A stretch of DNA of 38,533 nucleotides, taken from the IMG/VR virus record IMGVR_UViG_3300027710_000063, positions 1-38,533 of that record; one strand, given 5' to 3'. The notes below the pieces were generated by a model, which had not been told where the DNA came from, made no database searches, and worked only from the letters and a program-made list of their open reading frames with translations. Of the stretch, positions 3,295 to 24,416 are shown in pieces (position 1 is the first letter of the stretch; every line of letters begins with the position of its first letter). The translations under genes and the position numbers were made by a program. The stretch is from a virus.

Positions 3295-6200
3295 ATGATC
3301 ATTATCGCATCTGCACCTCTCGCGTCCGCTCTGGATCGTTCGAAGGGGATTGCCAACTCCAAATCACTGCGTCCGTCCAATACCAATCTGGCTTCTCGCT
3401 GTGAAGGGCTGAAATCTTCGCTGCGTTTGTTTGCTCGCACGCTGGCAACTCGCGCAATCACCACCGACGACTACAGCGTCGATCTGATTGCACTGGATGA
3501 CAAAGCGCGTCGCCTGTTCACTGAGCAAGTGCAGCGTGAGGGCGCGAACTTTGAAAGCGTGTCCGCAATGCTCGAAGCGAAAAACGTGTTCGCTGTTCTG
3601 TCCGTTGATGGCAGCGACCCCGAAGCCGTGTTCGATAACATCGCTGAACTGTTCGACGTTTATCTGAATGTCGATGACGTGTGGCAACGTGCATCCAGCA
3701 CTTCCAGCGACGAGCTGATCGCTAACCTTCTGTCTGACGCGGCGCACGGCGGTTATGCTGTCGAAGCGCTGGGCGGCGTACCTCCGGCCAGCATCGTAAC
3801 CAGCTCCGCTGACTGCGTTGTCGTAATCGAAGATCCGGATCTCTCGCCTGTCGTTGAAGTAGAGCAAAACGAAATGCCTGAGCCTGTGATCGGCGGCGTT
3901 GACGTTGCTCCGGTTGTCGAGACTGGTGTCGGCATCGGTGACGTCGTGGACACTCCGGAAGTTGTGATCGAAGAAGCGGTTCCGGAAAACCTCGACTTCC
4001 TGATCGCCTGCTGTGAAGAGTTGTATGCAGGCATCAAAGATGGCCTGCCTGACGTCAACGAGATCGGCAAACTGTTTGCAAGTCCCAAGCGTTTGGCAAC
4101 CTACATGCAAATGCCTGCGCTGACCAACAAGTTGAGCATCGACACGCAATCCATGTTGCCGTTTATGCTGGAAGCCACCGACGCGCTGGCCGCGCATTTC
4201 GCGTCACTGAATTCTGTAAATGAACAACACAACATCGAACAAAAGGAACCGAAAGCCATGACCAACCTGACCGAACTGATGCGCGTATGCCAAGAAATGT
4301 ATGCGGCCATCAAAGTCATTACCCCGAACCTGCCGGAAGTTTCCGAGCTGTTCGCTACTCCGGCCCGCATCCAGCGCTACGTGAAGTTCGCTCCGGTTGT
4401 GAACGCGATGAACGAAAAGGATCGCGCACTGCTGCCGGAAGTTGAAGCCAACGCCGAAGCAATCGCTGCTGGTTTCGTTGAGCTGGGCGAGCTGATGAAA
4501 GACGCCGACGCCGCTCCGGCTGCTGCTCCGGCTGCTGCTGCTGCTGCTCCGGTCGCTGCTGCCGCTCCGGTCGCGGCTGCCGCCTCCATTCCGGTCGCCG
4601 CTGTTGTTGCTGACGAAGACGACGAAGACGAAGAGGAAGAAGTCGCCGCCGTCGAAGATCAGGAAGAAGAGGAAGCGCAAGACGCCGAACATTATGCCCG
4701 TGAGCGCTGGCCTGTTCTGTCTCTGCTGCTGATCGATGGCGCTTACCAAGATCTGCCGAGCGAAGAGACTGCTGGCCTTACCGAAGTTCTGGCAGACGGT
4801 GCAACTCAAATGGTTGACCTGTTCAAAGACATGCCGATCAATGCGCCGTTCGATCTGGGTGACATTACCGAAGTTATGGACGACACCGATAGCAACCAAC
4901 TGGCTGCAATCGTCGGCCTGCTGATGGGTGACACCGACGATTTCGATCCGCTCAACTCCGGCTCCGCTGAGATCGAAGCGCTGCTCGATGCCGTTGAAGA
5001 AAGCGCGAACGTTATGGCCGACGCACTCGACGCCGAACTGGAAGAAGACGAGGACGAAGACGAAGACGGCAACGGTATCGAGCCTGTCGAATCCTCTCTG
5101 ATCGCCGCCTTCTCCGAACTGGGTGAAGACCTGTATCGCGTTGCTGAACTGATGATCCCTGGTATCACTGACGGCGGTGTCACTGTCGAAGAGCTGGCCG
5201 CTGCCGTTGCCGAAATGTGCGACCACAACGGCGAGACCGTGTGCCTGACTCTCAACTCCCTCTATCACTCCATCGAAGAAGAGGATGATGACTTCGCTGC
5301 CGTTGTCAGTGAGCTGGTAGAATCCGTTGCCGACGCGCAAGCAATCGATCTGGGTGACGAAGGCGACGATGATGACGTTGACGACGAAGACGACGAAATG
5401 GGTCTGGGTGACGAAGAAGACGACGAAGAAGATGAAAGCGACGACCTGCGTTTGGTCAACGTTACCATCGTTCCGCGTCTGGTTCTGAACCTGTCACTGG
5501 ATAACCGTCTGCACCTGACCGAAGAAGAAATTCTGGCGCTGGGTTGTGTCGAAGGTGAGCAAGGTGACTATGACCTGAGCATCGGTCTGAACGGTCGCAC
5601 CAAGGGCAAGAAAAATGCACCGCGCGGTTTCTACCTCGGCCCTATCCGTGACGTCGCAAGCGAACTGGCCAAGATCGCAAATGCGAGCGTGCTGATTCCG
5701 CAGAGCAAACTGAAAGGTGATCACGAACGTCTGGCCCGCGCAATCATCGCGGCACTGCCGAACGGTTCCGGTGGCCTGAACATGAACCTGCGCGGTGAAG
5801 AGCGTATCGTGCTGGATCCGGAAGGCAATATCACTGTCGGGTTCGCTGACGAAGAAGGCGACGGCGACGAGCGCGTCGTGAACTTCAACGACCTGTGCAG
5901 CCTGTCCACCAACTTCTATGTTGGTGACAACATTGCAACTGGCACCACCATCGAAGTGACCACCGTCCTGACCATGTTCCTGCCGCGCCTGAGCGGTGGC
6001 ACCAAAGAAGGTCGCTCGCTGCTGGTTGAGCATCTGTGCAAGCTGGCCGTGCGTAACGCTGAACGTACTGGCGTGCCTGTGCTGCCTGCGATCACTTTCC
6101 TCGGCGCTGATGCAGCACTGCAAGACACCAGCGGTATGTCTGTCGTTGAATGTCTGCAAACCATGCTCTCCGTAGCAGAGAACGAAGAGCCCACCGTGTA

Positions 6201-6480
6201 CGGCAACTGGGCGGGTGCAGTCGGTGCAAGTATGGCCGCAGTTATGTCCGGTGAAGATCACGGTATCAGCTACCTGAGCGAAGACCAGCGCATCGACTTC
6301 GACAACGCTGAGAACGAAGACGAGATCGAACTGATCGACGGCGTGCTGTCCGACACTGGTGCGGTAATGCTGACCGACGCTGGCCCGAACCTGTTTGCGC
6401 TGGGCGGTGACTACACCATCATGCTGGTTCCGCAAGGCAACGTCGAATCCGACGAAGACGAGGCGGTCGGTAAAGAATAA
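3295..6480 (+). CDS. Large acidic protein with duplicated helical domains, 1061 aa
   Basis: ATG 3295 follows CGGAG. The first ~60 residues are basic and low in acids; the remainder is very acidic. Two paralogous ~70-residue helical domains are visible at about 232-305 (CCEELYAGIKDGLPDVNEIG) and 322-395 (VCQEMYAAIKVITPNLPEVS), both with LFA(S/T)P followed by a Tyr. An Ala/Pro-rich hinge (about 405-440) and Asp/Glu runs then alternate with further helical segments. The C-terminal ~330 residues look folded and beta-containing. An internal ATG at 4258 has AAGGAA 9 bases upstream and an upstream CTGTAAATGAAC string, so a 740-residue isoform or an ancestral two-gene arrangement is possible. Codon use is strongly biased (CTG, CGT, GGT), as in highly expressed genes. 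I do not recognise the family; an abundant structural or scaffold-like protein is a guess. Confidence 0.8.
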   Translation: MIIIASAPLASALDRSKGIANSKSLRPSNTNLASRCEGLKSSLRLFARTLATRAITTDDYSVDLIALDDKARRLFTEQVQREGANFESVSAMLEAKNVFAVLSVDGSDPEAVFDNIAELFDVYLNVDDVWQRASSTSSDELIANLLSDAAHGGYAVEALGGVPPASIVTSSADCVVVIEDPDLSPVVEVEQNEMPEPVIGGVDVAPVVETGVGIGDVVDTPEVVIEEAVPENLDFLIACCEELYAGIKDGLPDVNEIGKLFASPKRLATYMQMPALTNKLSIDTQSMLPFMLEATDALAAHFASLNSVNEQHNIEQKEPKAMTNLTELMRVCQEMYAAIKVITPNLPEVSELFATPARIQRYVKFAPVVNAMNEKDRALLPEVEANAEAIAAGFVELGELMKDADAAPAAAPAAAAAAPVAAAAPVAAAASIPVAAVVADEDDEDEEEEVAAVEDQEEEEAQDAEHYARERWPVLSLLLIDGAYQDLPSEETAGLTEVLADGATQMVDLFKDMPINAPFDLGDITEVMDDTDSNQLAAIVGLLMGDTDDFDPLNSGSAEIEALLDAVEESANVMADALDAELEEDEDEDEDGNGIEPVESSLIAAFSELGEDLYRVAELMIPGITDGGVTVEELAAAVAEMCDHNGETVCLTLNSLYHSIEEEDDDFAAVVSELVESVADAQAIDLGDEGDDDDVDDEDDEMGLGDEEDDEEDESDDLRLVNVTIVPRLVLNLSLDNRLHLTEEEILALGCVEGEQGDYDLSIGLNGRTKGKKNAPRGFYLGPIRDVASELAKIANASVLIPQSKLKGDHERLARAIIAALPNGSGGLNMNLRGEERIVLDPEGNITVGFADEEGDGDERVVNFNDLCSLSTNFYVGDNIATGTTIEVTTVLTMFLPRLSGGTKEGRSLLVEHLCKLAVRNAERTGVPVLPAITFLGADAALQDTSGMSVVECLQTMLSVAENEEPTVYGNWAGAVGASMAAVMSGEDHGISYLSEDQRIDFDNAENEDEIELIDGVLSDTGAVMLTDAGPNLFALGGDYTIMLVPQGNVESDEDEAVGKE
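4210..4260 (+). promoter_or_regulatory. Buried intergenic-like segment with internal ribosome site
   Basis: Inside the 3295-6480 frame, TTCTGTAAATGAAC (around 4212) is followed by an AAGGAA Shine-Dalgarno sequence and ATG 4258. This matches the layout of true intergenic regions upstream of 7158 and 7803. The in-frame ATG begins the second paralogous domain exactly. It could drive a shorter isoform, or it may be the relic of a junction between two genes now fused. Confidence 0.4.
4510..4605 (+). repeat. Ala-rich GCT/GCC tract
   Basis: Runs of GCT and GCC codons encode APAAAPAAAAAAPVAAAAP, an Ala/Pro hinge between the duplicated helical domains and the acidic second half of the 1061-residue protein. 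It resembles the flexible Ala hinges seen in other acidic multi-domain proteins. Confidence 0.8.
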
Positions 6481-6540: not shown

Positions 6541-6978
6541 ATGGAACAAACGAAAAGCATGTGCGACGTACTTCTCGCACTTGAACTCACTGCGCGTACT
6601 GCAAGAGGTGCGCTGGTTGATAATGATAATGTTGTGGCACAACTTAGCGATAAGTTGGTGTCCAGCGAAACACTGCGTATGCAGCAACAGGAACAAAGCC
6701 AACAAGTTCTTGCCGCCGCCACCCGCAAATGTGATAACCTCGGCGCGGAAGTTGTGGCACTCTCTAACCGGCCCGCAGAGTTGATTCGCCTATTCGCAAC
6801 TCGCCTTGGCGTGGTGTGCGAAGCGACTGACTCCGCCGCCCGCGACGAGCTGCTGCGCGCGTTGCGTGACGAAATCAATCTCATGCTTCCGCAGCAACCT
6901 GCCGAGCCTGCGCAAAGTGAAGAAGACATTCGCGGTCGCGCACTCGCTACTTTAGAAAAGACCGGAAGTCAGAAATAA
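6541..6978 (+). CDS. Hypothetical helical protein, 145 aa
   Basis: ATG 6541 follows GGAGAG. The protein is largely helical, with a Gln-rich stretch around residues 47-55 (MQQQEQSQQ) that may form a short coiled coil. The C-terminal part is Ala/Leu/Arg-rich and ends TLEKTGSQK. There is no membrane segment or catalytic motif. The stop TAA abuts the ATG of a tiny membrane-protein gene. The family is not recognised. Confidence 0.7.
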   Translation: MEQTKSMCDVLLALELTARTARGALVDNDNVVAQLSDKLVSSETLRMQQQEQSQQVLAAATRKCDNLGAEVVALSNRPAELIRLFATRLGVVCEATDSAARDELLRALRDEINLMLPQQPAEPAQSEEDIRGRALATLEKTGSQK

Positions 6979-7092
6979 ATGCTCCGAGCTGCACTTGCTA
7001 ATTCCAAGGCATCGAAGCTATTCTGTTTTTCGATTCTAACTATCGTTGCCTTGCCCGTTCTTCTGGTGCTGGCCGACATGCTGTCGCGCTGA
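6979..7092 (+). CDS. Small single-pass membrane protein, 37 aa
   Basis: This short frame begins with the ATG directly after the TAA of the upstream gene, with GGAAG about 11 bases upstream, and stops at TGA 7090-7092. Residues 1-13 are polar with basic residues (Arg3, Lys10, Lys13). Residues about 14-33 (LFCFSILTIVALPVLLVLAD) form one hydrophobic segment, and the end is DMLSR. By the positive-inside rule the N-terminus is probably cytoplasmic. It could be a small lysis-related or membrane-modifying phage protein, but I see no family signature, and the short length leaves real doubt. Confidence 0.5.
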   Translation: MLRAALANSKASKLFCFSILTIVALPVLLVLADMLSR

Positions 7093-7099
7093 CGTCAGT

Positions 7100-7118
7100 A
7101 ATCTGTAAATGATAATTG
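7100..7118 (+). promoter_or_regulatory. AATCTGTAAATGATAATTG motif (candidate phage promoter)
   Basis: Located 40 bases upstream of the start at 7158. It matches the intergenic motif at 7712-7730 at 17 of 19 positions and resembles the one at 14481. The TGTAAATG core is similar to the T4 late promoter TATAAATA, which is recognised by a phage sigma factor. The promoter role is inferred from recurrence and position only. Confidence 0.5.
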
Positions 7119-7157
7119 TAAGCCGTTAATCAAACATCCCATTCAAGGAATCTCGTT

Positions 7158-7694
7158 ATGTCTAATGCTAAAAAGCGTTCCGCTTCTGAAACCGGCCTGC
7201 GTACCCGTGCTGCTCGTATCGTTGAGAAAGCCAACCTCGACCAGTCCACTTCCCATGCAGCGCAGTTTGAAGTTCAGGTGTTTGCGCGCGCTCCGGAAAC
7301 TTTCGGTGCCGTGATTCTGCGCGAAGGCGGCAACACGCTGCTGATTCGCCGCAAGAAAGGTTACGGCTCTTCCAAGCAGATCGAAACCACCATCAACCGC
7401 TCCGAAGTTATCGCCATCGCCCGTGATGCCGCCAAGGATCGCGCCGCTGCGATTACCATGTGGAATACCATTCCGGTGTTCCAACTGAAAGGTGTAAAGG
7501 TTGATTACGATGCCGAAGGTAATCTGATCTGCACCAGCGCCGAGACTGGCGAAGTGACCACTGTGCAGATGGACTCCCACGCTCGCGTTACCGTCACTGG
7601 CATGGACGGCAAGAAAGTTGCCGCGCCCGCTGGTGAAGCTGGCAGCAAGAAAAAGTCCGGCAAGGTAACTCAACTGCGCCGCGCTGCCAAGTAA
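7158..7694 (+). CDS. Basic hypothetical protein, 178 aa
   Basis: ATG 7158 is preceded by AAGGAATCTCGTT. The protein is strongly basic. Residues about 1-30 carry many Arg and Lys; the centre (about 36-155) looks beta-rich (FEVQVFARAPETFGAVILRE); the C-terminus is a Lys/Arg tail (GSKKKSGKVTQLRRAAK). Codon use is highly biased, as in neighbouring genes, which suggests strong expression. A candidate promoter motif lies just upstream. It could be a nucleic-acid-binding or structural protein, but I recognise no family. Confidence 0.75.
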   Translation: MSNAKKRSASETGLRTRAARIVEKANLDQSTSHAAQFEVQVFARAPETFGAVILREGGNTLLIRRKKGYGSSKQIETTINRSEVIAIARDAAKDRAAAITMWNTIPVFQLKGVKVDYDAEGNLICTSAETGEVTTVQMDSHARVTVTGMDGKKVAAPAGEAGSKKKSGKVTQLRRAAK

Positions 7695-7711
7695 TCCAAG
7701 TCTGCTTTCGA

Positions 7712-7730
7712 AATCTGTAAATAGTAATTG
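7712..7730 (+). promoter_or_regulatory. AATCTGTAAATAGTAATTG motif (candidate phage promoter)
   Basis: The second copy of the motif, in the 108-base gap between 7694 and 7803. It differs from the copy at 7100 only at two central bases (AG for GA). Conservation outside coding sequence and upstream of a highly biased gene supports a regulatory role, inferred to be transcription initiation. Confidence 0.5.
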
Positions 7731-7802
7731 AAAATCGGGGCGCTGCGAAACCGCGCGCCTTATCTCTCCAGCGCAAATGCGCAATTCAAGGAACTGTAGA
7801 AA

Positions 7803-8744
7803 ATGGCTAAGAAATCCAACAAGACCGCTGCTGCTAAATCCGCTCCGAAGAAAGCTGGCGTCGTTTTCCTCGAAAGCCTGTTTGGCTCTGCTGCCGAATA
7901 CATCAACAGCGATCCTGCTGCCGCTGCACTGGCCGCTTCTTTCGGTCTGGTAGCTGCCACCGCCGACAAGAAGGGCGGCAAGAAGTCCAAGCAAGTCGAA
8001 GCTGACGACGAAGACGAGGACGAAGACGAAGACGAAGAGGAAGAAACTTCTTCCAAGTCCAAGAAAGGCGGCAAGGCCGACAAGAAGGCCGACAAGAAAG
8101 CTGACAAGAAAGCCTCCAAGAAAAAGATGACCATCAAGCAGGTTGTCGCCGCGCTCAAGAAATCCGATCCGGCTGCCGTTGAAGCCATCAACGAAATGGA
8201 CGAAGACGAGCTGATCGAACTGGCCATCGCCACTGGCGTCGCCAAGACCGAGAAGGCCGCCAAGAAGCTGGGCGAAGACGGTATCGTAACCGCCCTGTCC
8301 GAAAAGTTCGAACTCGCCGATGACGAGGACGAAGACGAAGACGAGGACGAGGACGAAGAGTCCGACGACGAAGACGAAGATGAAGACGAGGACGAGGACG
8401 AGGACGAAGAGTCCGACGACGAAGACGAAGATGAAGACGAAGATGAAGACGAGGACGAAGACGAAGACGAAGACTTCGACCCCGAAGACGCCGACGAAGA
8501 CGAGCTTCGCGAATTCGCCAAGGCCAACAAGATCGCATCTACTCGCAAGCTGAACGGCTACGACGAAGATCAACTGCGTGCCGCCGTCACCGCATGGATC
8601 GAAGAGCAGGCCGAAGATGAAGACGAAGACGAGGACGAAGACGAAGATGAAGATGAAGACTTCGACGACGAAGACGGCTTCGATGAAGACGAAGACGAGG
8701 ACGAAGACGAAGACGAAGATGAAGACTTCGACGACGAAGATTAA
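7803..8744 (+). CDS. Asp/Glu-run protein with two small helical modules, 313 aa
   Basis: ATG 7803 follows AAGGAACTGTAGAAA. The layout is a Lys/Ala-rich N-terminus, a short hydrophobic helical part (about 20-57), an acidic run, a KADKK repeat block (about 93-107), helical module 1 (about 131-172, DEDELIELAIATGVAKTEKA), a long Asp/Glu run (about 173-225), module 2 (about 228-265, DEDELREFAKANKIASTRKL), and acidic runs to the end. The two modules align over ~38 residues and loosely resemble SAP or Rho-N type helix-extended-helix folds. About half the protein is Asp or Glu. It may act as a DNA mimic, histone-chaperone-like partner or scaffold; none of these is demonstrated. It sits beside an oppositely charged gene at 8892. 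Confidence 0.8.
   Translation: MAKKSNKTAAAKSAPKKAGVVFLESLFGSAAEYINSDPAAAALAASFGLVAATADKKGGKKSKQVEADDEDEDEDEDEEEETSSKSKKGGKADKKADKKADKKASKKKMTIKQVVAALKKSDPAAVEAINEMDEDELIELAIATGVAKTEKAAKKLGEDGIVTALSEKFELADDEDEDEDEDEDEESDDEDEDEDEDEDEDEESDDEDEDEDEDEDEDEDEDEDFDPEDADEDELREFAKANKIASTRKLNGYDEDQLRAAVTAWIEEQAEDEDEDEDEDEDEDEDFDDEDGFDEDEDEDEDEDEDEDFDDED
8320..8485 (+). repeat. GAC/GAA low-complexity tract
   Basis: A run of GAC, GAG, GAA and GAT codons encodes alternating Asp and Glu with two DEESDDED punctuations, a near-duplicate block of about 60 bases. The tract creates long spurious antisense open frames. Similar runs recur at 8615-8740. Confidence 0.85.
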
Positions 8745-8768
8745 TTCCTCGGTCTGACTCAATCCCAG

Positions 8769-8789
8769 CGGCGGGTAGCTTGCCCGCCG
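8769..8789 (+). terminator. CGGCGGG stem-loop
   Basis: CGGCGGG (8769-8775) pairs with CCCGCCG (8783-8789) across a 7-base loop, 25 bases after the stop at 8744. The position and GC-rich stem suit a terminator, but the following TGTTCAG is a poor U-tract. Confidence 0.5.
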
Positions 8790-8831
8790 TGTTCAGTGTG
8801 AAGATTAATTTCCAGCACTCACTAATTCTTA

Positions 8832-8851
8832 GCACGGTAAGAAACCCGTGC
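8832..8851 (+). terminator. GCACGG stem-loop followed by TTTT
   Basis: GCACGG (8832-8837) pairs with CCGTGC (8846-8851), followed by GACTTTTCTC. This is a second hairpin in the 147-base gap between 8744 and 8892, so the gap appears to carry two tandem termination or processing elements. Confidence 0.45.
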
Positions 8852-8891
8852 GACTTTTCTCAAATAGATTTCCATTAAGGAGTGCCTAATC

Positions 8892-9515
8892 ATGGCCAAG
8901 CAAATCAACGTCAACACTTCCGACCTGAAACAAATCCAACGCGAGCTGAAAGCTCTGGAAAAAACCCGCGCCGTCGCTGGCAAGGCTCTGGACAAATCCC
9001 GCAAGCAGTCCGAAGAGAACCTGAACGCGCAAGCGTCCACCGTGGACGCTCTGGATTCCAACATCGAATCCCTGCGCAGCAAGCTGGCCGTTCTGGAAGG
9101 TGGCGAAGCTGCTCCGGCCAAGGCTGACAAGAAAGCCAAGGGCGAGAAAGCTCCGGCCAAGGCTGACAAGAAAGCCGATAAAAAGGCTGACAAGAAAGCT
9201 GACAAGAAAGCCGATAAAAAGGCTGACAAGAAAGCTGAAAAAGAAGTGAAGCCGAAAGCTGACAAGAAAGCCAAGGGCGAGAAAGCTCCGGCCAAGGCTG
9301 ACAAGAAAGCCGACAAGAAGGCTGACAAGAAAGCCAAGGGTGAAAAAGAAGTGAAGCCGAAAGCTGACAAGAAAGCCGATAAAAAGGCCGACAAGAAAGC
9401 CGATAAAAAGGCCGACAAGAAAGCCGACAAGAAAGCCAAGGGCGACAAGGGCAGCAAGAAGAGCGGCAAGTCGAAAGACAAAGGCAGCTCCGGCGCTCTG
9501 GACTTCAAACTGTAA
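8892..9515 (+). CDS. H1-like Lys/Ala/Asp repeat protein, 207 aa
   Basis: ATG 8892 follows AAGGAG 9 bases upstream. The N-terminal ~75 residues are a predicted coiled coil (DLKQIQRELKALEKTRAVAG). Residues about 76-185 are repeats of KADKKADKK and AKGEKAPAKADKK, rich in Lys and Ala with no aromatic residues, much like bacterial histone H1-like tails. The end is GSSGALDFKL. The likely property is non-specific polyanion binding, to DNA or to the Asp/Glu protein encoded just upstream. Eukaryotic H1-like and AlgP-like tails share this composition, but low-complexity similarity does not prove homology. Codon use suggests strong expression. Confidence 0.8.
   Translation: MAKQINVNTSDLKQIQRELKALEKTRAVAGKALDKSRKQSEENLNAQASTVDALDSNIESLRSKLAVLEGGEAAPAKADKKAKGEKAPAKADKKADKKADKKADKKADKKADKKAEKEVKPKADKKAKGEKAPAKADKKADKKADKKAKGEKEVKPKADKKADKKADKKADKKADKKADKKAKGDKGSKKSGKSKDKGSSGALDFKL
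9113..9450 (+). repeat. Degenerate GCTGACAAGAAA repeat array
   Basis: Direct repeats of about 12 bases (GCTGACAAGAAA / GCCGATAAAAAG), with a longer unit that includes AAGCCAAGGGCGAGAAAGC, encode the KADKK array. Synonymous alternation between units suggests either selection against slippage or old divergence. The same 12-mer occurs in the repeats at 86-220 and at 8080-8110. Confidence 0.85.
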
Positions 9516-10378: not shown

Positions 10379-10720
10379 ATGATCAATTCACTCAACACAC
10401 TGAACGACGCGCTATCCGCTGCCGCCTCAACACTTCATCGAGTGTATGCCGCGCGCAACGCTGATGCCGAGATAGTTGGTTACGTAGTCGTGACCGTACA
10501 ACTCGAACCGTCAATAGGTGTGCAAGTAACTCCGCTTGCTTCAATTGGTGAGCGTCACGACATGCTGCGCCAAACTCCGCTGGAAGTTTTGGAGTTGTAC
10601 TGCAATGTCCAGCGCAATCTGAACGGATGGAATGGCGATTTCGAATCGTATCCGCTGCCGCCTTCCGAAGAGGAAGACATGCAAGCCTATTATCACTATC
10701 AACAGTTCGACGAGGCGTAA
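10379..10720 (+). CDS. Hypothetical protein, 113 aa, leading the topoisomerase operon
   Basis: ATG 10379 follows GGAGCGAATCCG and lies just downstream of the extended -10 promoter. The N-terminus is helical, the centre is beta-like (EIVGYVVVTVQLEPSIGVQV), and the end is acidic and aromatic (EEEDMQAYYHYQQFDEA). The family is not recognised. Its stop is one base from the topoisomerase B-subunit start, so it is translationally coupled and may be functionally linked to it. Confidence 0.7.
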   Translation: MINSLNTLNDALSAAASTLHRVYAARNADAEIVGYVVVTVQLEPSIGVQVTPLASIGERHDMLRQTPLEVLELYCNVQRNLNGWNGDFESYPLPPSEEEDMQAYYHYQQFDEA

Positions 10721-10721
10721 A

Positions 10722-12734
10722 ATGGCCGAGAAGAAAAAGAAGAGCACGGGAGGCCAGTCTGCCGACACGTTCGCGATAAACGAAGGTGTGCGCGGCATTC
10801 AGGCGCGACCGCACATGTACCTCGGGGAAGCTGGCCCCTCTATGGTGTATCGCTGTATCAAGGAAGAGGTTGATAACTGCCTCGATGAAGCGATGGCCGG
10901 ACGTAATGACTGGGTAGAGATTTATTACGACAGCACCACGCGCGAGTTTATCGTTGCGGATAAAGCTGGCGGCATCCCAGTTGATTTCAAGAAGCGTGAT
11001 AACGGTGAGAAGATTTCGATCCTCACTGCTGCATTCACAATCGCGCACGCTGGCGGCAAGTTCAATGACGCCGCTTACAAAGTTTCTGCTGGTACTCACG
11101 GCGTTGGTGTGACCGCTGTTAACGCTGTGTCTGACTTCCTCGAAGTGTGGACGAAGCGCGACGGGCAAATCTGGTCGCAACGTTTCGAAGGCGGTTTCCC
11201 CGTCGAAGCAAAGCCGAAGAAAGTGAAGTCGTTGCCGAAGCACATTTCCGAATGCCTGACCTCCAAAGGTTACGGCACTGTGATTCACAACCGCCTCAAC
11301 CAAGGCATCGTTTCCGCTGATGCGAAAAACGGTAAGCTGCCGAAGGGCGGCGAAGTTGCGCACCCCGACCTTGCCAACGTCGTGAGTTGGATCGAATCGA
11401 TCTCCGAACTCAACCCAGGTTTGACGCTGGTGTTGTCGGTGCGTAATGCGAAGGGCGTGAAGTCAAAGACGTTCATCAACAAGCGTACGCTGGCGCAGAC
11501 GTTGGAAGAGATCGTCAACGACTGTCTGGGCGAAGAAGAGTCACGCCGCTCCAAGCCCGTGCTGTTCAAGAACGACTACGTGACCGCACTGTTGCAGTGG
11601 ACGACACTGCCGCACATGATGTTGCGTTCAAGCGTGAACAACTCTCCGACCGTAGATGGTGGTACTCACGTTCGCGGCCTGATCGATGCACTTGCCGAAG
11701 CGGTGAAGCCGTACGAAAACAGCAAGCACACCGACAAGAAGAAACGCAAGTATAGCAGTGACGATCTGCTGTTCGGTCTGGTCGGCATCTTCGACTGGCG
11801 TATGCACGGCGCGCAGTATCACAGCCAAGTAAAAGACAAGCTGGTGTCCAAGGTGCAGGACGAAGTGAAGGCGATGCTGTTGCCTGAAATTCAAAAGCAC
11901 TTCGCCGCCAACAAGGCACTGCCGAAAGCGATTCTGGATCGTGCTGTTCAAGTTGAAGCAAGTCGGGAGAGTATGCAGAAGACTCTGCGCTCCATGACCG
12001 ATGCGAAACGTAACGCGCGGGTCGGCGGCACTCCGGCGTGTCTGCACACTGCGAGCACCAAGGACGACACGCAACGCGAAATGTTCGTGGTAGAAGGGGA
12101 CTCCGCTGGCGGTACTGCGAAGAACGCCCGCAACCCTGTCACGCAAGAAGTGTTCAAGGCTGGCGGTAAACCTGCGAACGCCCTGACCTCTCCGCTCGAC
12201 AAGGTGATCGGCAACCCGACCGTCAGTGACTTTCTGGTGTCGCTCGGTGTGGACTTCAAAGAGTTTGACGAGCAGATCAAGAAGCGTGAACCGAACCCGA
12301 CTTTCAGCGTCAACAAGTTGCGCGTGCAGCGTCTCTACTTGCTCGCGGATGCGGACGTGGACGGATACCACATCAATGCTCTGTTCCTCGCCACCATCTG
12401 GACGCTGATCCCTGATCTGATTCGTCAAGGCCGTGTGTATGTCGTGGACGCTCCGCTGTTCAACGTGATCCACAAGGGCAAGCACTACGGCGGACGCACC
12501 AAGGAAGAGGTGATCGCCAAGGCACCGAAAGAGGTGAAGGCCACCGCGATTCAGCGCGCTAAGGGCTGGGGTGAAGTTCCTGTTCCCGTCATGGAAGTGA
12601 TCGCATTCGATAGCACAACTCGAAACGTGCTGCGTGTTCTTCCGTTCGACACAGCCGAAGGCCAGCAATGGTATTACCGTGTGGTGGGTGACGATGCGTC
12701 TGCCCGTCGTCAACTGCTGGGCTTCAAGGGGTAA
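10722..12734 (+). CDS. Type IIA DNA topoisomerase, ATPase/TOPRIM subunit (GyrB/ParE-like)
   Basis: This 670-residue subunit hydrolyses ATP to drive DNA strand passage. The start is ATG 10722, just after the previous stop, with GAGG upstream. GHKL ATPase motifs are visible: EEVDNCLDEA (about 48-57), VADKAGGIPVD (about 78-88), and AGGKF with SAGTHGVGVTAVNA (about 110-135). The TOPRIM domain shows EGDSAGG (about 458-464) and DADVDGYH (about 542-549). The length fits ParE (about 630) better than the usual GyrB (about 800). In the second GHKL motif the usual DxGxG reads DKAGG, with Ala at the first Gly. The partner subunit begins 4 bases after the stop. A phage copy probably maintains topology during replication of a large genome. 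GyrB versus ParE cannot be settled by eye. Confidence 0.95.
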   Translation: MAEKKKKSTGGQSADTFAINEGVRGIQARPHMYLGEAGPSMVYRCIKEEVDNCLDEAMAGRNDWVEIYYDSTTREFIVADKAGGIPVDFKKRDNGEKISILTAAFTIAHAGGKFNDAAYKVSAGTHGVGVTAVNAVSDFLEVWTKRDGQIWSQRFEGGFPVEAKPKKVKSLPKHISECLTSKGYGTVIHNRLNQGIVSADAKNGKLPKGGEVAHPDLANVVSWIESISELNPGLTLVLSVRNAKGVKSKTFINKRTLAQTLEEIVNDCLGEEESRRSKPVLFKNDYVTALLQWTTLPHMMLRSSVNNSPTVDGGTHVRGLIDALAEAVKPYENSKHTDKKKRKYSSDDLLFGLVGIFDWRMHGAQYHSQVKDKLVSKVQDEVKAMLLPEIQKHFAANKALPKAILDRAVQVEASRESMQKTLRSMTDAKRNARVGGTPACLHTASTKDDTQREMFVVEGDSAGGTAKNARNPVTQEVFKAGGKPANALTSPLDKVIGNPTVSDFLVSLGVDFKEFDEQIKKREPNPTFSVNKLRVQRLYLLADADVDGYHINALFLATIWTLIPDLIRQGRVYVVDAPLFNVIHKGKHYGGRTKEEVIAKAPKEVKATAIQRAKGWGEVPVPVMEVIAFDSTTRNVLRVLPFDTAEGQQWYYRVVGDDASARRQLLGFKG

Positions 12735-12737
12735 ATC

Positions 12738-14465
12738 ATGGCAAAGATTGTTCGCAAGAAAGTGGCCGACGAGAAACCAGCGGCCCCGAAAAAGAAAATC
12801 GTGAAGAAGGGCACGAAGAAAGAAGCGCCCTCCAAGAAGTCGTCACTGAATGAAACCGAACTCGGTAGCGTGAGCGCCAAGACCAAGAAGAAGAAGGTCA
12901 CGAAGCTCCGCTCTGGCGGGCAACTGGCTCCGACGGTCGATAGCAAACTGTCTGACGTTACCCTCAACGACTACACCGACCACGCGCTGAAAGAGTACGG
13001 CACGTATGTCGTGCAGGATCGTGCGGTTCCCGACAAGCGCGATGGATTGAAGCCGTCTCACCGCGCCATGCTGTGGTCGGTAGTTGATTCCGGTTGCACG
13101 CACACTGGCGCTTACGTGAAGTCCGCGCGTATCACAGGTAAAGCAATCGGTGACTATCACCCGCACGGTGATAAAGCGTGTTACGAATCCGGTGTGACAA
13201 TCGCGAACTTCAACGTTCCGCTGATCGATGGCGCTGGTAACTTCGGCTCGCCTGTCGATAACCCTGCGGCAATGCGTTATTCTGAAATGCGCCTGTCGCG
13301 ATTCAGTGCGATGTTCATGGTGGACAAGCGTTACCTTGAAGCTGTACCGCTGATCGATAACTTCGCACTCGACCGCAAATGGCCGCTGTTCCTTCCGGCG
13401 CTGTTGCCTACTCTGCTGATCGAAGGCAACGTCACGATCCCAGCGTACGGCGTGCGTGCAGGCAACCCCGCATTCGAGTTGTCGGGCATCGTCAAGCTGA
13501 CACTGGCAGCGTTGAAGGGCCGCAAGTTGAAGCTGGCAGACCTCGAACGCTTCATGAAGGTGAAGCACCCCTACGGTGCAGTGTGCCGCTCTTCGAAAGA
13601 GGACATAAGCGCGTTGCTCGCCAGTGGGCGCGGTAGCCTGACCTACGCGCCGATCATCAATGCCGAATGGAAAACGAAACGCATCATCATCCGTTCGTTC
13701 TCCCCAGGTTCTCTGTCGAACGCCAACTCGCTCGACAAGACGCTGAAAGATCTGCGCAACATGGACGGCGTGTCGTCCGCTGCGGAAATCTCTGGCCGTA
13801 AGAACCCAGACAGTGGCCCGTTCGGTTGCTGCATCTACGTCACGCCGCAACGTGGTACTGACGAGGACGCATTCAACGAGCTGGCGCTGCGTGTGCGTGA
13901 TAAGCTCACGAAGTCTGAGAGCTATGCGCTCGGTGTGACTGAACGTCGCGTCGTCGAGCAAAGCGGCTCCGATGACAATCCGGAACTCGAACCCTCGTTC
14001 GCGTACTGCAACTTCCTCAAGTTCTTTGAGGAATGGATCGCATACCGGATCGAGTTGGAAGTCAATTACCTGAAACACTTCATGGCGAAAGCAGAATTCG
14101 TATGCAAGATTCTGCGCGGCAAGATCAAAGTGTGTGCGAGTGCCGACGCGCTCGACCGTGCTATCAAGATCATCCGCACTGCCAAGGAGCCCAAGGCCAG
14201 CCTGATGAAAGAATTCAAGCTGGACGAGGATCAGGTTGAGGCTATCCTGTCAATGCAATTGCGGTCGCTCGCCAAGCTCGCACTGGCTGATGTGAAAGCG
14301 CAACTCGCGGCAGTGGAAGCCGAGCTGGCTGAATACCAACGCCGCTTGAAAGAACCCGGCAAGTCTGCGGCTAACGATCTGTCCAAGCGGATCAAAGCCT
14401 ACATACAGAAACCTGACATTGCACAAAGTCATGTACCCGTCTTTATTGACGACGATGACGAGTGA
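12738..14465 (+). CDS. Type IIA DNA topoisomerase, DNA-cleaving subunit (GyrA/ParC-like), lacking the C-terminal domain
   Basis: The 575-residue product forms the DNA-gate subunit. Motifs include RAVPDKRDGLKPSHRAML (winged-helix region), KSARITGKAIGDYHPHGD, and GAGNFGSPVDNPAAMRYSE. The catalytic tyrosine is Tyr181 in MRYSE, preceded by the conserved Arg. The coiled-coil gate follows (FEEWIAYRIELEVNYLKHFM). The protein ends in an acidic tail, IDDDDE, where GyrA and ParC (about 750-875) continue into a DNA-wrapping beta-pinwheel. That domain is absent, so supercoiling by wrapping is unlikely and relaxation or decatenation is more plausible. The first ~60 residues are a Lys-rich extension (KKKIVKKGTKKE) not found in the core family, perhaps a replacement DNA-binding tail. 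It is co-transcribed with the upstream subunit. Confidence 0.95.
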   Translation: MAKIVRKKVADEKPAAPKKKIVKKGTKKEAPSKKSSLNETELGSVSAKTKKKKVTKLRSGGQLAPTVDSKLSDVTLNDYTDHALKEYGTYVVQDRAVPDKRDGLKPSHRAMLWSVVDSGCTHTGAYVKSARITGKAIGDYHPHGDKACYESGVTIANFNVPLIDGAGNFGSPVDNPAAMRYSEMRLSRFSAMFMVDKRYLEAVPLIDNFALDRKWPLFLPALLPTLLIEGNVTIPAYGVRAGNPAFELSGIVKLTLAALKGRKLKLADLERFMKVKHPYGAVCRSSKEDISALLASGRGSLTYAPIINAEWKTKRIIIRSFSPGSLSNANSLDKTLKDLRNMDGVSSAAEISGRKNPDSGPFGCCIYVTPQRGTDEDAFNELALRVRDKLTKSESYALGVTERRVVEQSGSDDNPELEPSFAYCNFLKFFEEWIAYRIELEVNYLKHFMAKAEFVCKILRGKIKVCASADALDRAIKIIRTAKEPKASLMKEFKLDEDQVEAILSMQLRSLAKLALADVKAQLAAVEAELAEYQRRLKEPGKSAANDLSKRIKAYIQKPDIAQSHVPVFIDDDDE

Positions 14466-16103: not shown

Positions 16104-16625
16104 ATGGATGAGCTTAAAGCAGGAGCGACGACCAGAGGGCACTTAACCCAGTGCTTCATCTGTACTCACTTCTTCGCAAGCATCCATTGGCATCATACGG
16201 TGCCACGTTCTCTCGGTGGACATGAAGACTTGCAGATTCCCCTCTGCGGTTCATGCCACACCGCACTGCACGCAAAGGCTAGTGCAGTGTTCGCACTTCT
16301 AAAAGGTGGCAGAAAAACGAAGGTATCGACGTACTGGGCAGACGTGGAAGCCGAACAGCGTGCAGAGCGCTGGCTGCGAATTTTGGTTTCCGCTATGCTG
16401 TATCCTCCGGTAGATTCCGAGGACAAGACGATAACGCTTCCATCGTTAACTGTTGATAAGCATCGGCGCTTCGCCCTTGAGATAATAAAGCGTTCCGCAA
16501 ATCTCACTAGCGTAGCACAAGCATTGCTGTACTGCATCGACTTTACAGCGGCTTCTAAGGGAATTCAGAACAATGAAGAAGACGGCACAAACAATAAGCG
16601 TAAAAAGCGCAATGAGCTGTGGTGA
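16104..16625 (+). CDS. Free-standing HNH endonuclease, 173 aa
   Basis: A DNA-cleaving enzyme of the HNH family. A zinc-binding frame is formed by Cys17-x2-Cys20 and Cys48-x2-Cys51. Between them lies the beta-beta-alpha-metal motif, with His30/His31 in HWHHTVPRSLGGHEDLQ and the terminal His52 in CGSCHTALH. The position usually held by Asn is Asp42. ATG 16104 is 3 bases after the previous stop with a weak ribosome site, suggesting translational coupling. Such stand-alone HNH genes in phages often act as homing endonucleases, though some help packaging or host DNA degradation. The rest of the protein is helical and ends in a Lys/Asn-rich tail. Its 3' end overlaps the next gene by 53 bases. Confidence 0.85.
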   Translation: MDELKAGATTRGHLTQCFICTHFFASIHWHHTVPRSLGGHEDLQIPLCGSCHTALHAKASAVFALLKGGRKTKVSTYWADVEAEQRAERWLRILVSAMLYPPVDSEDKTITLPSLTVDKHRRFALEIIKRSANLTSVAQALLYCIDFTAASKGIQNNEEDGTNNKRKKRNELW

Positions 16626-17496
16626 GTGCGAAGGGCTGTCACGCCGCGCACTGATGGTCGCTGACGATAACGGGAAGTCAGTGAACTGTAGCTCTATGGG
16701 TAAGGAGGCGGACGCCAAGCCTTGTGGCAAGTTCCGCTCCGACCTTTTGTCGTTATCAGTCGATGAACGGGTGGCACTGCGCCAACTCATCAACCTCGTT
16801 AAGAAGTTCGATGTGAAAGCGCTACGGGTTGTGGCCGCCTCATTGCTGACAGAGAGCAAGACACGGGAGAAAGGAGTTCGTATCGGGCAACGCATGTTCG
16901 TCCGTATTCGCTCCACTGCAAACCGTAACTACGTGGGTAACTTCATGTCGTGCGTTGTGCTCGATGCGCGCGACGACATGATCCGGTTAATGAGCGACGA
17001 CGGTAAGACAACGCTGACTTACCAGATGCCTGACAGTGGTGAGTTCAACGGGCCGTGTCTCTACACGCTGTCCGAGTTCCGCCCGCTGTTGAAGCAGATG
17101 CGCGCTCAAGGGCACCTGATCGATCCGAAGGCCATTCCTGTCGCACGCAAGTTTGAGCCCGAAGAGGACGTCAAGTTCAAGGCACCGCGCAAGGGCGAAC
17201 TCGCCTCTGCGGTTGCGGACATTGACGAGATCATTTCCAACAAATCCAAAGCCAAGCGTAAGAAGGGTAAGGGAGCGTCAACCAGCTTGGTTGACTTCGC
17301 AGATCTGGCTCGCCAGATAGATAGTGGTATCGCCATCGGAACGCATTACGATGACGATGATTCCGACGCACCGGACTTGACTGGTGGTGGCTACCGCCGC
17401 AAGGTCAAGAAGGCGAAAGGCAAAGGTAAGCCCGTCGCCAAGAAGCGCCCGAAGAAATACTCGGGTGTCCGTGAAATCGAAATCGCCAACATCTAA
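16573..17496 (+). CDS. Putative zinc-finger protein with a disordered basic tail, 307 aa
   Basis: ATG 16573 has AAGGGA about 10 bases upstream. A later in-frame ATG at 16612 would reduce overlap with the HNH gene. Near the N-terminus four cysteines occur as CGEC (residues 16-19) plus Cys39 and Cys51, a possible zinc site. A mainly beta middle (about 97-190) contains RIGQRMFVRIRSTANRNYVG, reminiscent of a small beta-barrel. The last ~80 residues are Lys/Asp/Gly-rich and disordered-looking, ending KKYSGVREIEIANI. The DnaB-type helicase nearby ends in a matching KEIEI peptide after a similar basic linker, so both may dock on the same partner. I recognise no family; a replication accessory role is inferred from context. 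Confidence 0.7.
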   Translation: MKKTAQTISVKSAMSCGECEGLSRRALMVADDNGKSVNCSSMGKEADAKPCGKFRSDLLSLSVDERVALRQLINLVKKFDVKALRVVAASLLTESKTREKGVRIGQRMFVRIRSTANRNYVGNFMSCVVLDARDDMIRLMSDDGKTTLTYQMPDSGEFNGPCLYTLSEFRPLLKQMRAQGHLIDPKAIPVARKFEPEEDVKFKAPRKGELASAVADIDEIISNKSKAKRKKGKGASTSLVDFADLARQIDSGIAIGTHYDDDDSDAPDLTGGGYRRKVKKAKGKGKPVAKKRPKKYSGVREIEIANI

Positions 17497-21245: not shown

Positions 21246-24200
21246 ATGGCGAAGAAGAAAGCAGACCCCACGGTAAAGAAACGTTTAAAGGCTGGGCGCG
21301 TCGCTGCGCTCGACCTTCTTATTGAAGAGGGCGCTGGCGGCGGAACTGCTGTTGTCACAATGCCCGAGTTTGATCCGGAAAAAGGCGTAAGCGCCCCCGA
21401 CTTCGAATCCTCCGATGACTTCAACGTCGAGAGAATTCTCAACGAGTCCGGTGAAGCCTCTATTCCTGTTGACTTGAAGTTCGATGATTCCTCAATGCCT
21501 ACCGCGAAGAACTTCTTCGAGTGGGTGAGTTCATCCAACTACTTGGCGGCCACTCCGTATCTCGAACAGGCGTTGATTGGTATCCGGCTCTTTGGCGAAT
21601 ACTGCCCCAACCCTGAATGTTCAGACACCGAATGGATGCAAACTGAAAACCACGAACCTAGTGAAGGTATCGTCGGCCTGTTGAATAAGGTCACGTTGCT
21701 TGAGCATGGTGTGTGTCCGAAGTGTGGATCCAAGCGGTCAATGCTTTTCAAGAAGCGTAGACTCAACCTCTATAACGAGTTGGCTGTTTGCGCAGGCCAG
21801 CGTTGCGTGACTGGTAACACGCTGCTGACCACCGATATGGGCTTGCGTCGTGTGCGCGATCTCCCTGTCAACGGCGACGACTCCGTAATGTCGGATCTGA
21901 ATGTCATGCTCAACAACAAGGCATGTCGCGTTCATAAAGTTTTGAAAGATACCGACTGCAACCGGCTGGTCGCTGCGAACTTGTCTAACGGCATGTCTCT
22001 GCGCGGTACTGCTGACCACGGCGTTGAAGGCTGGGCGTTTTCCTATCGCCCCCTCTCCGACTGCGGGCGCTCCCCCATTGTTGTCAATCTCGGCACTCAC
22101 GATAGCAAACCGTTCCCCACCAAGGAATTCGTTTTGGGCTTGCACGCCAAATACAAAACGAGCGGTGTTGTAACCCGTGGTGCTCACTTCTCTTGCGGTG
22201 AAGATTTCATGTTGCCCGTTATCGCGGATCTCGCGAAAGGCAACGTGCGTGTTGTTGGCAATCGTCCGTACTTGGACGGTGACGGCGTAACGCTGTCCCG
22301 CAACATCGTTCTTCAACATCTGGTCGCCGCTCACATGCGCGATGATGTTCTCGCAGAACTCCCCGATTACGTTTTAACTCAACCGCGCGAAACGCTCGCG
22401 GTGTTCTTCGCCTCTCTGTTTGAGCTTGGCGAGGTCACTGTCGTTAGCGAACAACTGGCGCGTGACATTCAAGTTCTCGCCGTCGGCTGCAATCAGCCCA
22501 TCGTGCGGGAAGGATGTACCTTGATTCGCGACCGTGCGGCGTACGACGACTTCTCCCCGCTGGCCGAAACTGTTCAGCGCGTGTGCCCTGACTTCGCGCC
22601 GTCTGCATGGGATCGCGCAACTCTGGTGACTCTTCTCGCCGACGTGCAGGAATCCGACCCGCTGCATTACCTCAAGCGTCTGGTCGATGGCAAGTTCGCG
22701 GTGTTCACTGCCGAAGTCGAACACATCGAGCCCGAGCCCGTTTGGACTTTCGAAGTCCCGAGCGGTCAGCGCTATGTCTCCAACGGAATGGTTTCGGAAA
22801 ACAGCGGCAAGTCCATCGTGGTCGCAATGCTTTCCACCTACATCACTCACCTGCTGCTCAAGGTTCAGAAACCGACGCGCTTGTTCAACGTGGGTGATAA
22901 CCAAATCCTGCACGGAACATTCGTGGCCCTGACATTGGCGCAGGCGAAGGATACGCTGTGGGATCCTTACTACGGCTACCTGTTGGATTCGCCGTGGTTC
23001 CAGCGCTACCACGCACTGATCAGGCGACTCGAAGCGCTGCACGGTGTTGAAGTGTTGAAGCTGCGGGACACGTTCGTGCTCTACCGCCATCGTAACCTGT
23101 ACGTGTACGCTGCTGGCCCTGACAAACGGGTGCTTCGTGGTCGTACTCGTTTTCTGGCAGCGATAGATGAAATCGGTTACTTCGATAACAACGCCGCCGC
23201 GCAGAAGGTTAAGACTGGTGCCGCCGAAGTGCATATCGCACTCGAACGTTCGCTGCTTACCGTACGCGCCAACGAACAGCGGCTAGTCGATGAGGGCTAT
23301 GACAACTTGCTGACGGGCTACATGCTCAACGTGAGTTCCCCGAGTGATTACCGCGACAAGATTTGCGAACTCGTTCGCTTGTCACAAAGCTCGCGCAAGA
23401 TCCTCGGCATCCATGCCCCGACGTGGAAGATGAATCCGCACATCCCGCGCGATAACGAAATCATCGTGGACGCTTTCCAACGCGACCCAATGACTGCTGC
23501 CCGAGATTACGGAGCGCAGCCTCCGGTGTCCGCAAGTCCGTTTATCTCTCCGGTCGTTGTCAACGATACGATGCGCGAGGTCGGACGTAACGAGGTGGAA
23601 TACACGCACCAGATCAACCGCGCAAGTAACGCGGGCATTCAGGAGCGTACCATCTACGGCGTAGTGACTCGCATCAAAGAGACTGACGTGCCTTCGGTGC
23701 TGGCAATCGACGCAGGCGAAACGAACAACAGCTTTGCGCTGTCATGTACTTCGACCCGCGACGGTATGGCGAGCATCGACTTGCTAATCGAGATCATGCC
23801 TGCCCCTGGTGTTGCGTTGAACTACACGATGATCTTTGACTACCTGATCGTTCCGGTTATCAAAGCGCGTAACGTTCGCATCCTGTTGGCCGACCGTTGG
23901 AACTCAACCAAGTTGCTGCAAGATGCGCTCGCGACAAGTCTCGTTGACGTGTCGAAGAAATACTCCCTCAAGTATAACGACATGTGGGACGTCAAGAACC
24001 AGATGCAAGGCGGCACGCTGAGTTATCCGCGCAGCACGCATGTGAAATCTGTAACTGATATATTGAACTCGGATCTTTCGGATTACCCCGAATGCTTCAA
24101 GGGACGTCCGGTTGAACACTTCATGTATCAGTGCGTGACTATCCAAGATAGCCGCAATCAGGTATTGAAAGGGCAGGGACTAACCGATGACTTGTGGCGC

Positions 24201-24416
24201 GCAACTGCGCTGAGTGTCTACGGCCTTAACAATCCGGACTGGGCTCCGTTCCTCGTTCCGCGCAAGAACACCAACATGAATCGTGACCCTAGCCGCTTGA
24301 TGGTTATGGGTGCGGGTCAGCGTACGGCGGGCGGCGGCGGGTCTTCTGTGGCGACGAAATCTGGAGAGGTCGGTAATTTCGCCTGTGTAGCTGGTTCAAG
24401 GAGATTAAAACGATGA
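21246..24416 (+). CDS. terL: Large terminase subunit (packaging ATPase/nuclease) interrupted by an intein
   Basis: The motor that cuts and pumps DNA into the prohead. The 1056-residue precursor would give a ~723-residue mature terminase after splicing. N-terminal residues 120-160 form a zinc-ribbon-like Cys set (Cys120, Cys125, Cys157, Cys160). The Walker A loop is split: GQR (184-186), then the intein, then SGKS (520-523), restoring GQRSGKS. Walker B is FLAAIDEI with Asp641-Glu642. The RNase H-type nuclease shows VLAIDAGETNNS, ILLADRWNSTKLL and LTDDLWRATALS with the expected acidic residues. The start is ATG 21246 with AAGTGAG upstream. The gene overlaps the next by 4 bases. The zinc ribbon next to the ATPase is uncommon in T4-type terminases as I know them. 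Confidence 0.93.
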   Translation: MAKKKADPTVKKRLKAGRVAALDLLIEEGAGGGTAVVTMPEFDPEKGVSAPDFESSDDFNVERILNESGEASIPVDLKFDDSSMPTAKNFFEWVSSSNYLAATPYLEQALIGIRLFGEYCPNPECSDTEWMQTENHEPSEGIVGLLNKVTLLEHGVCPKCGSKRSMLFKKRRLNLYNELAVCAGQRCVTGNTLLTTDMGLRRVRDLPVNGDDSVMSDLNVMLNNKACRVHKVLKDTDCNRLVAANLSNGMSLRGTADHGVEGWAFSYRPLSDCGRSPIVVNLGTHDSKPFPTKEFVLGLHAKYKTSGVVTRGAHFSCGEDFMLPVIADLAKGNVRVVGNRPYLDGDGVTLSRNIVLQHLVAAHMRDDVLAELPDYVLTQPRETLAVFFASLFELGEVTVVSEQLARDIQVLAVGCNQPIVREGCTLIRDRAAYDDFSPLAETVQRVCPDFAPSAWDRATLVTLLADVQESDPLHYLKRLVDGKFAVFTAEVEHIEPEPVWTFEVPSGQRYVSNGMVSENSGKSIVVAMLSTYITHLLLKVQKPTRLFNVGDNQILHGTFVALTLAQAKDTLWDPYYGYLLDSPWFQRYHALIRRLEALHGVEVLKLRDTFVLYRHRNLYVYAAGPDKRVLRGRTRFLAAIDEIGYFDNNAAAQKVKTGAAEVHIALERSLLTVRANEQRLVDEGYDNLLTGYMLNVSSPSDYRDKICELVRLSQSSRKILGIHAPTWKMNPHIPRDNEIIVDAFQRDPMTAARDYGAQPPVSASPFISPVVVNDTMREVGRNEVEYTHQINRASNAGIQERTIYGVVTRIKETDVPSVLAIDAGETNNSFALSCTSTRDGMASIDLLIEIMPAPGVALNYTMIFDYLIVPVIKARNVRILLADRWNSTKLLQDALATSLVDVSKKYSLKYNDMWDVKNQMQGGTLSYPRSTHVKSVTDILNSDLSDYPECFKGRPVEHFMYQCVTIQDSRNQVLKGQGLTDDLWRATALSVYGLNNPDWAPFLVPRKNTNMNRDPSRLMVMGAGQRTAGGGGSSVATKSGEVGNFACVAGSRRLKR
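21804..22802 (+). mobile_element. 333-aa intein in the terminase Walker A loop, endonuclease motifs degenerate
   Basis: The in-frame insertion runs from Cys187 to Asn519 of the precursor, and Ser520 is the downstream nucleophile. Splice block A is CVTGNTLLTTDMGLRRVRDL; block B has Thr255 and His258 in GTADHG; block F/G reads VPSGQRYVSNGMVSEN. The usual block F His is replaced, and the penultimate residue is Glu rather than His. Two segments sit where dodecapeptide (LAGLIDADG) motifs belong: EFVLGLHAKYKTSGVV (294-309) and LAVFFASLFELGEVTV (384-399), 90 residues apart. Both lack the catalytic Asp. The domain is therefore probably a decaying homing endonuclease. Removing it rebuilds a normal P-loop. 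Confidence 0.9.
24046..24065 (+). promoter_or_regulatory. AATCTGTAACTGATATATTG, motif-like site inside the terminase gene
   Basis: This differs little from the intergenic AATCTGTAAATGATAATTG. It lies about 370 bases before the small zinc-ribbon and portal genes, so it could act as an internal promoter for them. It also encodes ordinary terminase residues (KSVTDILN), and chance is possible. Confidence 0.3.

Follow-up and report, generated by a model that had tools for sequence, protein, structure and literature searches.

An intein insertion has already been noted in some large terminase subunits (TerL) of the phage group named Lupandier (PMC7412058), among them those of Lu11, Yoloswag, AD1, JA13 and Y3. 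The TerL inteins of mycobacteriophages likewise lie in ATPase motifs including the P-loop, although one of them, TerL1-a, sits between the P-loop Lys and Thr, which is a different point from the one considered here (PMC5050341). Phage inteins are often without the penultimate His, whose role can be substituted by the block F His, and splicing is kept; in an RDF phage intein with Gly at the penultimate position, restoring the His made splicing slower (PMC5050341). Known helpers of the C-terminal splicing step are the penultimate His and positions 4 and 13 of block F (F:4 and F:13; PMC4031507), and Asp at F:4, His at F:13 and a penultimate His are typical of class 1 inteins without being defining for the class (PMC4031507, PMC5050341). 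The archaeal VMA inteins TliVMA and PhoVMA (7QSS, 7QST) combine a Hint domain with a LAGLIDADG endonuclease, which in PhoVMA is dead through loss of an active-site Asp, and some Hint domains have been reported to need the endonuclease scaffold for splicing (PMC8966425).

The window analyzed here is a stretch of 38,533 nucleotides which represents an entire virus record and probably a fragment of the genome. Comparison of protein sequences confirmed its TerL as a member of the jumbo-phage PaBG/"Lupandier" group. Its relatives are mostly jumbo phages infecting Erwinia, Dickeya, Yersinia and Pseudomonas, and no relative turned up when bacterial and archaeal genomes were scanned using a C-extein profile. 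The TerL gene adjoins a portal gene (phrog_16240, E 1.5e-216). Elsewhere in the window we noticed type II topoisomerase subunits and a further topoisomerase-like protein (10632-14465 and 16573-17496), which lie upstream of a DnaB-like helicase and TerL, as well as a 1061-aa ORF at 3295-6480 without a match in Pfam or PHROGs. The features of the TerL locus are as follows:

21246-24416, plus strand: ORF of the TerL precursor, 1056 aa, 723 aa minus the intein (phrog_17415, terminase large subunit, E 2.5e-271)
21246-21803, plus strand: N-extein with the C-terminal end AGQR, assigned by homology with intein-free TerL
21804-22802, plus strand: intein of 333 aa with class 1 layout, assigned as an insertion relative to empty alleles and by its fold match with inteins
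21804-21842, plus strand: block A CVTGNTLLTTDMG with the nucleophile Cys1; Cys1-Val2 is invariant in 24 aligned same-site inteins
21993-22034, plus strand: block B, GTADHG; intein Thr69 and His72 (precursor Thr255 and His258) are both invariant in the 24 aligned inteins
22104-22673, plus strand: degenerate LAGLIDADG endonuclease domain, about residues 101-290, from alignment with the endonuclease-containing inteins 7QSS, 7QST and 2CW7
22131-22157, plus strand: possible first LAGLIDADG remnant VLGLHAKYK, no Asp, about residues 110-118, read from the sequence where pLDDT is below 50
22407-22433, plus strand: second LAGLIDADG remnant FASLFELGE, Gly209 at the catalytic Asp position in the alignment with same-site relatives
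22737-22775, plus strand: altered block F PVWTFEVPSGQRY, Thr315 at F:4 and Gln322 at F:13, from the residue survey
22776-22802, plus strand: block G VSNGMVSEN, Glu332 instead of the penultimate His, terminal Asn333
22803-24413, plus strand: C-extein starting with the +1 Ser of SGKS; 69% identity with the C-extein of the relative L001, SGK invariant

The inserted stretch comprises exactly 999 nt in frame and spans precursor residues C187 to N519, after which comes Ser520-Gly-Lys-Ser. Its removal rebuilds AGQRSGKS, identical to intein-free homologues: the uninterrupted motif is present in PaBG, NCTB and many metagenomic phages, while an intein occupies precisely this point in others. The initial annotation had placed an intein in the terminase P-loop, had proposed that its excision restores GQRSGKS and had suggested looking for an intein-free allele at the same site. 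Such alleles thus exist, and the exact insertion relative to them, together with the fold match to inteins, bears out this reading. Cys1 provides the N-terminal nucleophile, Thr69 and His72 the TxxH motif of block B, and the terminal Asn333 is followed by Ser at +1, where class 1 inteins use Cys, Ser or Thr; a Hint fold is predicted, with matches to many inteins (Z 11-20). Sequence and model together confirmed the insert as a class 1 intein within the TerL P-loop. A class 3 intein, which has no position-1 nucleophile and carries a Trp-Cys-Thr triplet with Cys at F:4, was ruled out by Cys1 and the Thr at F:4. Because 42 distinct sequences including the window are occupied at this point and the fold is that of a Hint domain plus endonuclease, the insertion is far beyond chance. 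Codon usage and G+C content of intein and extein are close.

Searching Pfam and intein models, as had been suggested, gave little for the window copy: NCBIfam TIGR01445 matched at the N-terminus only and, at 14.6 bits, below its cut-off of 24.5, and no intein domain was found in Pfam. A Pfam match to a DddA-like domain (E 0.038, under the cut-off) was dismissed as chance. The sequence search of the PDB returned chance matches only, and when the intein by itself served as tblastn query, phages yielded only weak matches with a best E of about 2. The fold was predicted by AlphaFold2 for the intein with six flanking residues per side from 22 sequences (mean pLDDT 74, pTM 0.76; residues 110-170 poorly predicted). 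The model matched the endonuclease-containing inteins 7QSS (Z 19.8 over 282 residues), 7QST (Z 19.7) and 2CW7 (Z 19.5) with both domains covered, and mini-inteins at about Z 11-14. The insert is therefore predicted to consist of a Hint domain and a LAGLIDADG-type domain. TliVMA and PhoVMA are the best fold matches, at 14-15% identity over the aligned part.

An active LAGLIDADG homing endonuclease has two motifs with a catalytic acidic residue in each. In the window intein Gly209 stands in motif 2 and the possible motif 1 has no Asp, in agreement with the initial annotation, which had called the motifs degenerate; that residues 110-118 represent a strongly diverged first motif is only plausible. 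Inspection of the alignment revealed no full LAGLIDADG motif among the aligned same-site relatives, although one Asp may survive in the second motif of L001 and L002 (LFPDDE). Of 24 same-site inteins only one matched Pfam LAGLIDADG_3, and this weakly (E 0.075). With the catalytic residues gone from the homing endonuclease, the intein would have lost its means of spreading and would now probably persist by vertical descent.

To place the splice junction residues we compared the 42 distinct same-site inteins. Asp at F:4 together with a penultimate His (HN end) was found in 39, in which F:13 is Pro (25), His (11) or Gln (3). Only the window, L001 and L002 combine Thr at F:4 and Gln at F:13 with an EN end; L003 repeats the motif of L002. 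Absence of the block F His is thus frequent at this site, and among the 42 surveyed the joint loss of all three helpers is restricted to the window clade. The earlier description of the splice residues as non-canonical holds for the missing block F His and the Glu before Asn; the former is shared by most same-site relatives, in which the F:4 Asp and the penultimate His are nevertheless kept. By these comparisons the true oddity is that one small clade has lost the F:4 Asp, the F:13 His and the penultimate His together. The inteins of Lu11, Yoloswag, AD1, JA13 and Y3 share gene, insertion point (GQR/SGKS), homologous sequence and a degenerate endonuclease with the window intein, but measure 222-256 aa instead of 333 aa and carry both the F:4 Asp and the penultimate His. 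In comparison to the mycobacteriophage TerL and RDF inteins, the window type has lost the F:4 Asp and the block F His in addition. TerL inteins were known before in this phage group (PMC7412058); what looks new here is the residue subtype.

The altered C-terminal site is under constraint. Between L001 and L002, dN/dS is 0.045 for the N-extein, 0.107 for the intein and 0.032 for the C-extein; inside the intein it is 0.109 for the N-Hint part, 0.124 for the endonuclease remnant and 0.027 for the C-Hint part. Block F WTFEVPSGQRY is unchanged between the window and L001, though the inteins are 45% identical overall. The low C-Hint dN/dS and the unchanged block F indicate that the site is kept and not drifting. 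The constraint seen on the endonuclease remnant would be in line with a Hint domain that depends on this scaffold. Each of the six records searched (four metagenomic, two isolates, probably incomplete genomes) contains one TerL. Given purifying selection, the conserved extein and the single TerL per record, splicing is very probably retained, and the earlier claim to this effect was a good inference.

Taken together, we consider it highly likely from sequence and model that a class 1 intein with an endonuclease devoid of catalytic residues splices out of the Walker A loop. We infer the chemistry as follows. Cys1, aided by Thr69 and His72, would start the N-S acyl shift, the P-loop Ser at +1 would receive the N-extein, cyclization of Asn333 would release the intein, and ligation of the exteins would yield the 723-aa TerL with GQRSGKS intact. 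The usual helpers of Asn cyclization and +1 activation appear as Thr, Gln and Glu in the window clade, and these residues have stayed conserved. DnaE split inteins are also without the penultimate His; in the window intein some other group must act, because the block F His is gone as well. As the usual three residues are replaced and the substitutes conserved, the C-terminal step would have to use other helpers, for which Glu332, Gln322, Arg323 and nearby conserved Glu residues are candidates. The window type might tentatively be viewed as a mechanistic subtype of class 1, in which Asn cyclization proceeds without all three helpers via a new fixed set (Thr315, Gln322/Arg323, Glu332, perhaps Glu309, Glu311 or Glu317) and the dead endonuclease scaffold is needed for splicing; we give this extension less credence than splicing itself.

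Counting against splicing are the match to the curated intein model below its cut-off, the absence of all three C-terminal helpers and the fact that the triple loss is shared by two independent relatives only. If the intein were dead, a further copy or a split protein without ligation would have to supply TerL activity. Inactive inteins are known (PMC3196547) and three assisting residues are gone, but intein and exteins are under purifying selection, the altered block F is kept, the nucleophiles and block B are intact and each record holds a single TerL. An internal start yielding the C-extein alone was rejected, as inspection showed the ATG in NGMVSEN to be missing from L001 and L002, so that no conserved internal start codon is present. 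We regard a dead intein as very improbable. The initial annotation had further proposed that slow or regulated splicing times DNA packaging. Loss of the helpers might make splicing slow or conditional and delay active TerL, all the more as the P-loop would be inactive in the unspliced protein. This proposal was not supported: penultimate His loss does not predict slowness, as restoring the His slowed splicing in a phage intein (PMC5050341), neither a conserved sensor residue nor a trigger is seen in the sequence, and other late events also limit TerL. Timed packaging is accordingly rated as unlikely, though less so than a dead intein, and splicing of the intein out of TerL is still the preferred reading.

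Profile comparison and the identical insertion point assign the window intein to the same-site TerL P-loop inteins of PaBG-group phages, with a match of 96% to the L004/L006 inteins (residues 1-101) and of 86% to the Lu11 type (full length). The window clade (support 100) and the intein-bearing Erwinia/Dickeya clade (99) are sister groups in the extein tree, on which intein presence requires three changes. From these trees, vertical descent with fast change and independent entry of a related intein are each possible. In the latter case the window type came to the same site from another, related intein, and the helper residues were not lost in place. A very long branch separates the window type from the other same-site inteins, the best intein tree does not place it with its extein sister group, and three intein-bearing groups stand among empty ones in the extein tree. 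On the other hand, inteins at other TerL sites match less well in the profile comparison than same-site inteins do, the AU test does not reject a grouping with the Erwinia/Dickeya inteins (p 0.339), and searches including tblastn against phages found no outside relative. Independent entry therefore seems a minority prospect.

Further inteins were observed in this phage group. In L099 (1756-5401) and L102 (1868-5374) TerL is encoded in two ORFs interrupted at SPWF/C, the N-part of the intein ending the first and the C-part (VHN/C) opening the second, which constitutes a split-intein fractured gene; L100 is probably the same, and in L102 an endonuclease-like ORF lies between the two TerL halves. 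Additional TerL inteins sit at EY/C within the zinc-ribbon part in L064 and L082, and at Walker B in L008, L103 and L106. L110 carries a 137-aa mini-intein at RGLQ/C besides its P-loop intein. The portal ORF of L008 (about 6696-9395) likewise contains an intein, whose LAGLIDADG motifs look intact and whose terminal Asn is preceded by Lys. As this intein also lacks the block F His, a rule that either this His or the penultimate His is kept is not general among the inteins seen.

In the window, an essential motor protein thus harbors a natural class 1 intein whose splice site is still under selection although all three helpers are gone. This intein lends itself to testing directly which groups Asn cyclization truly needs and could supply a splicing scaffold with different behavior. 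In the phage family, the site displays one intein with loss of the endonuclease to differing extents.
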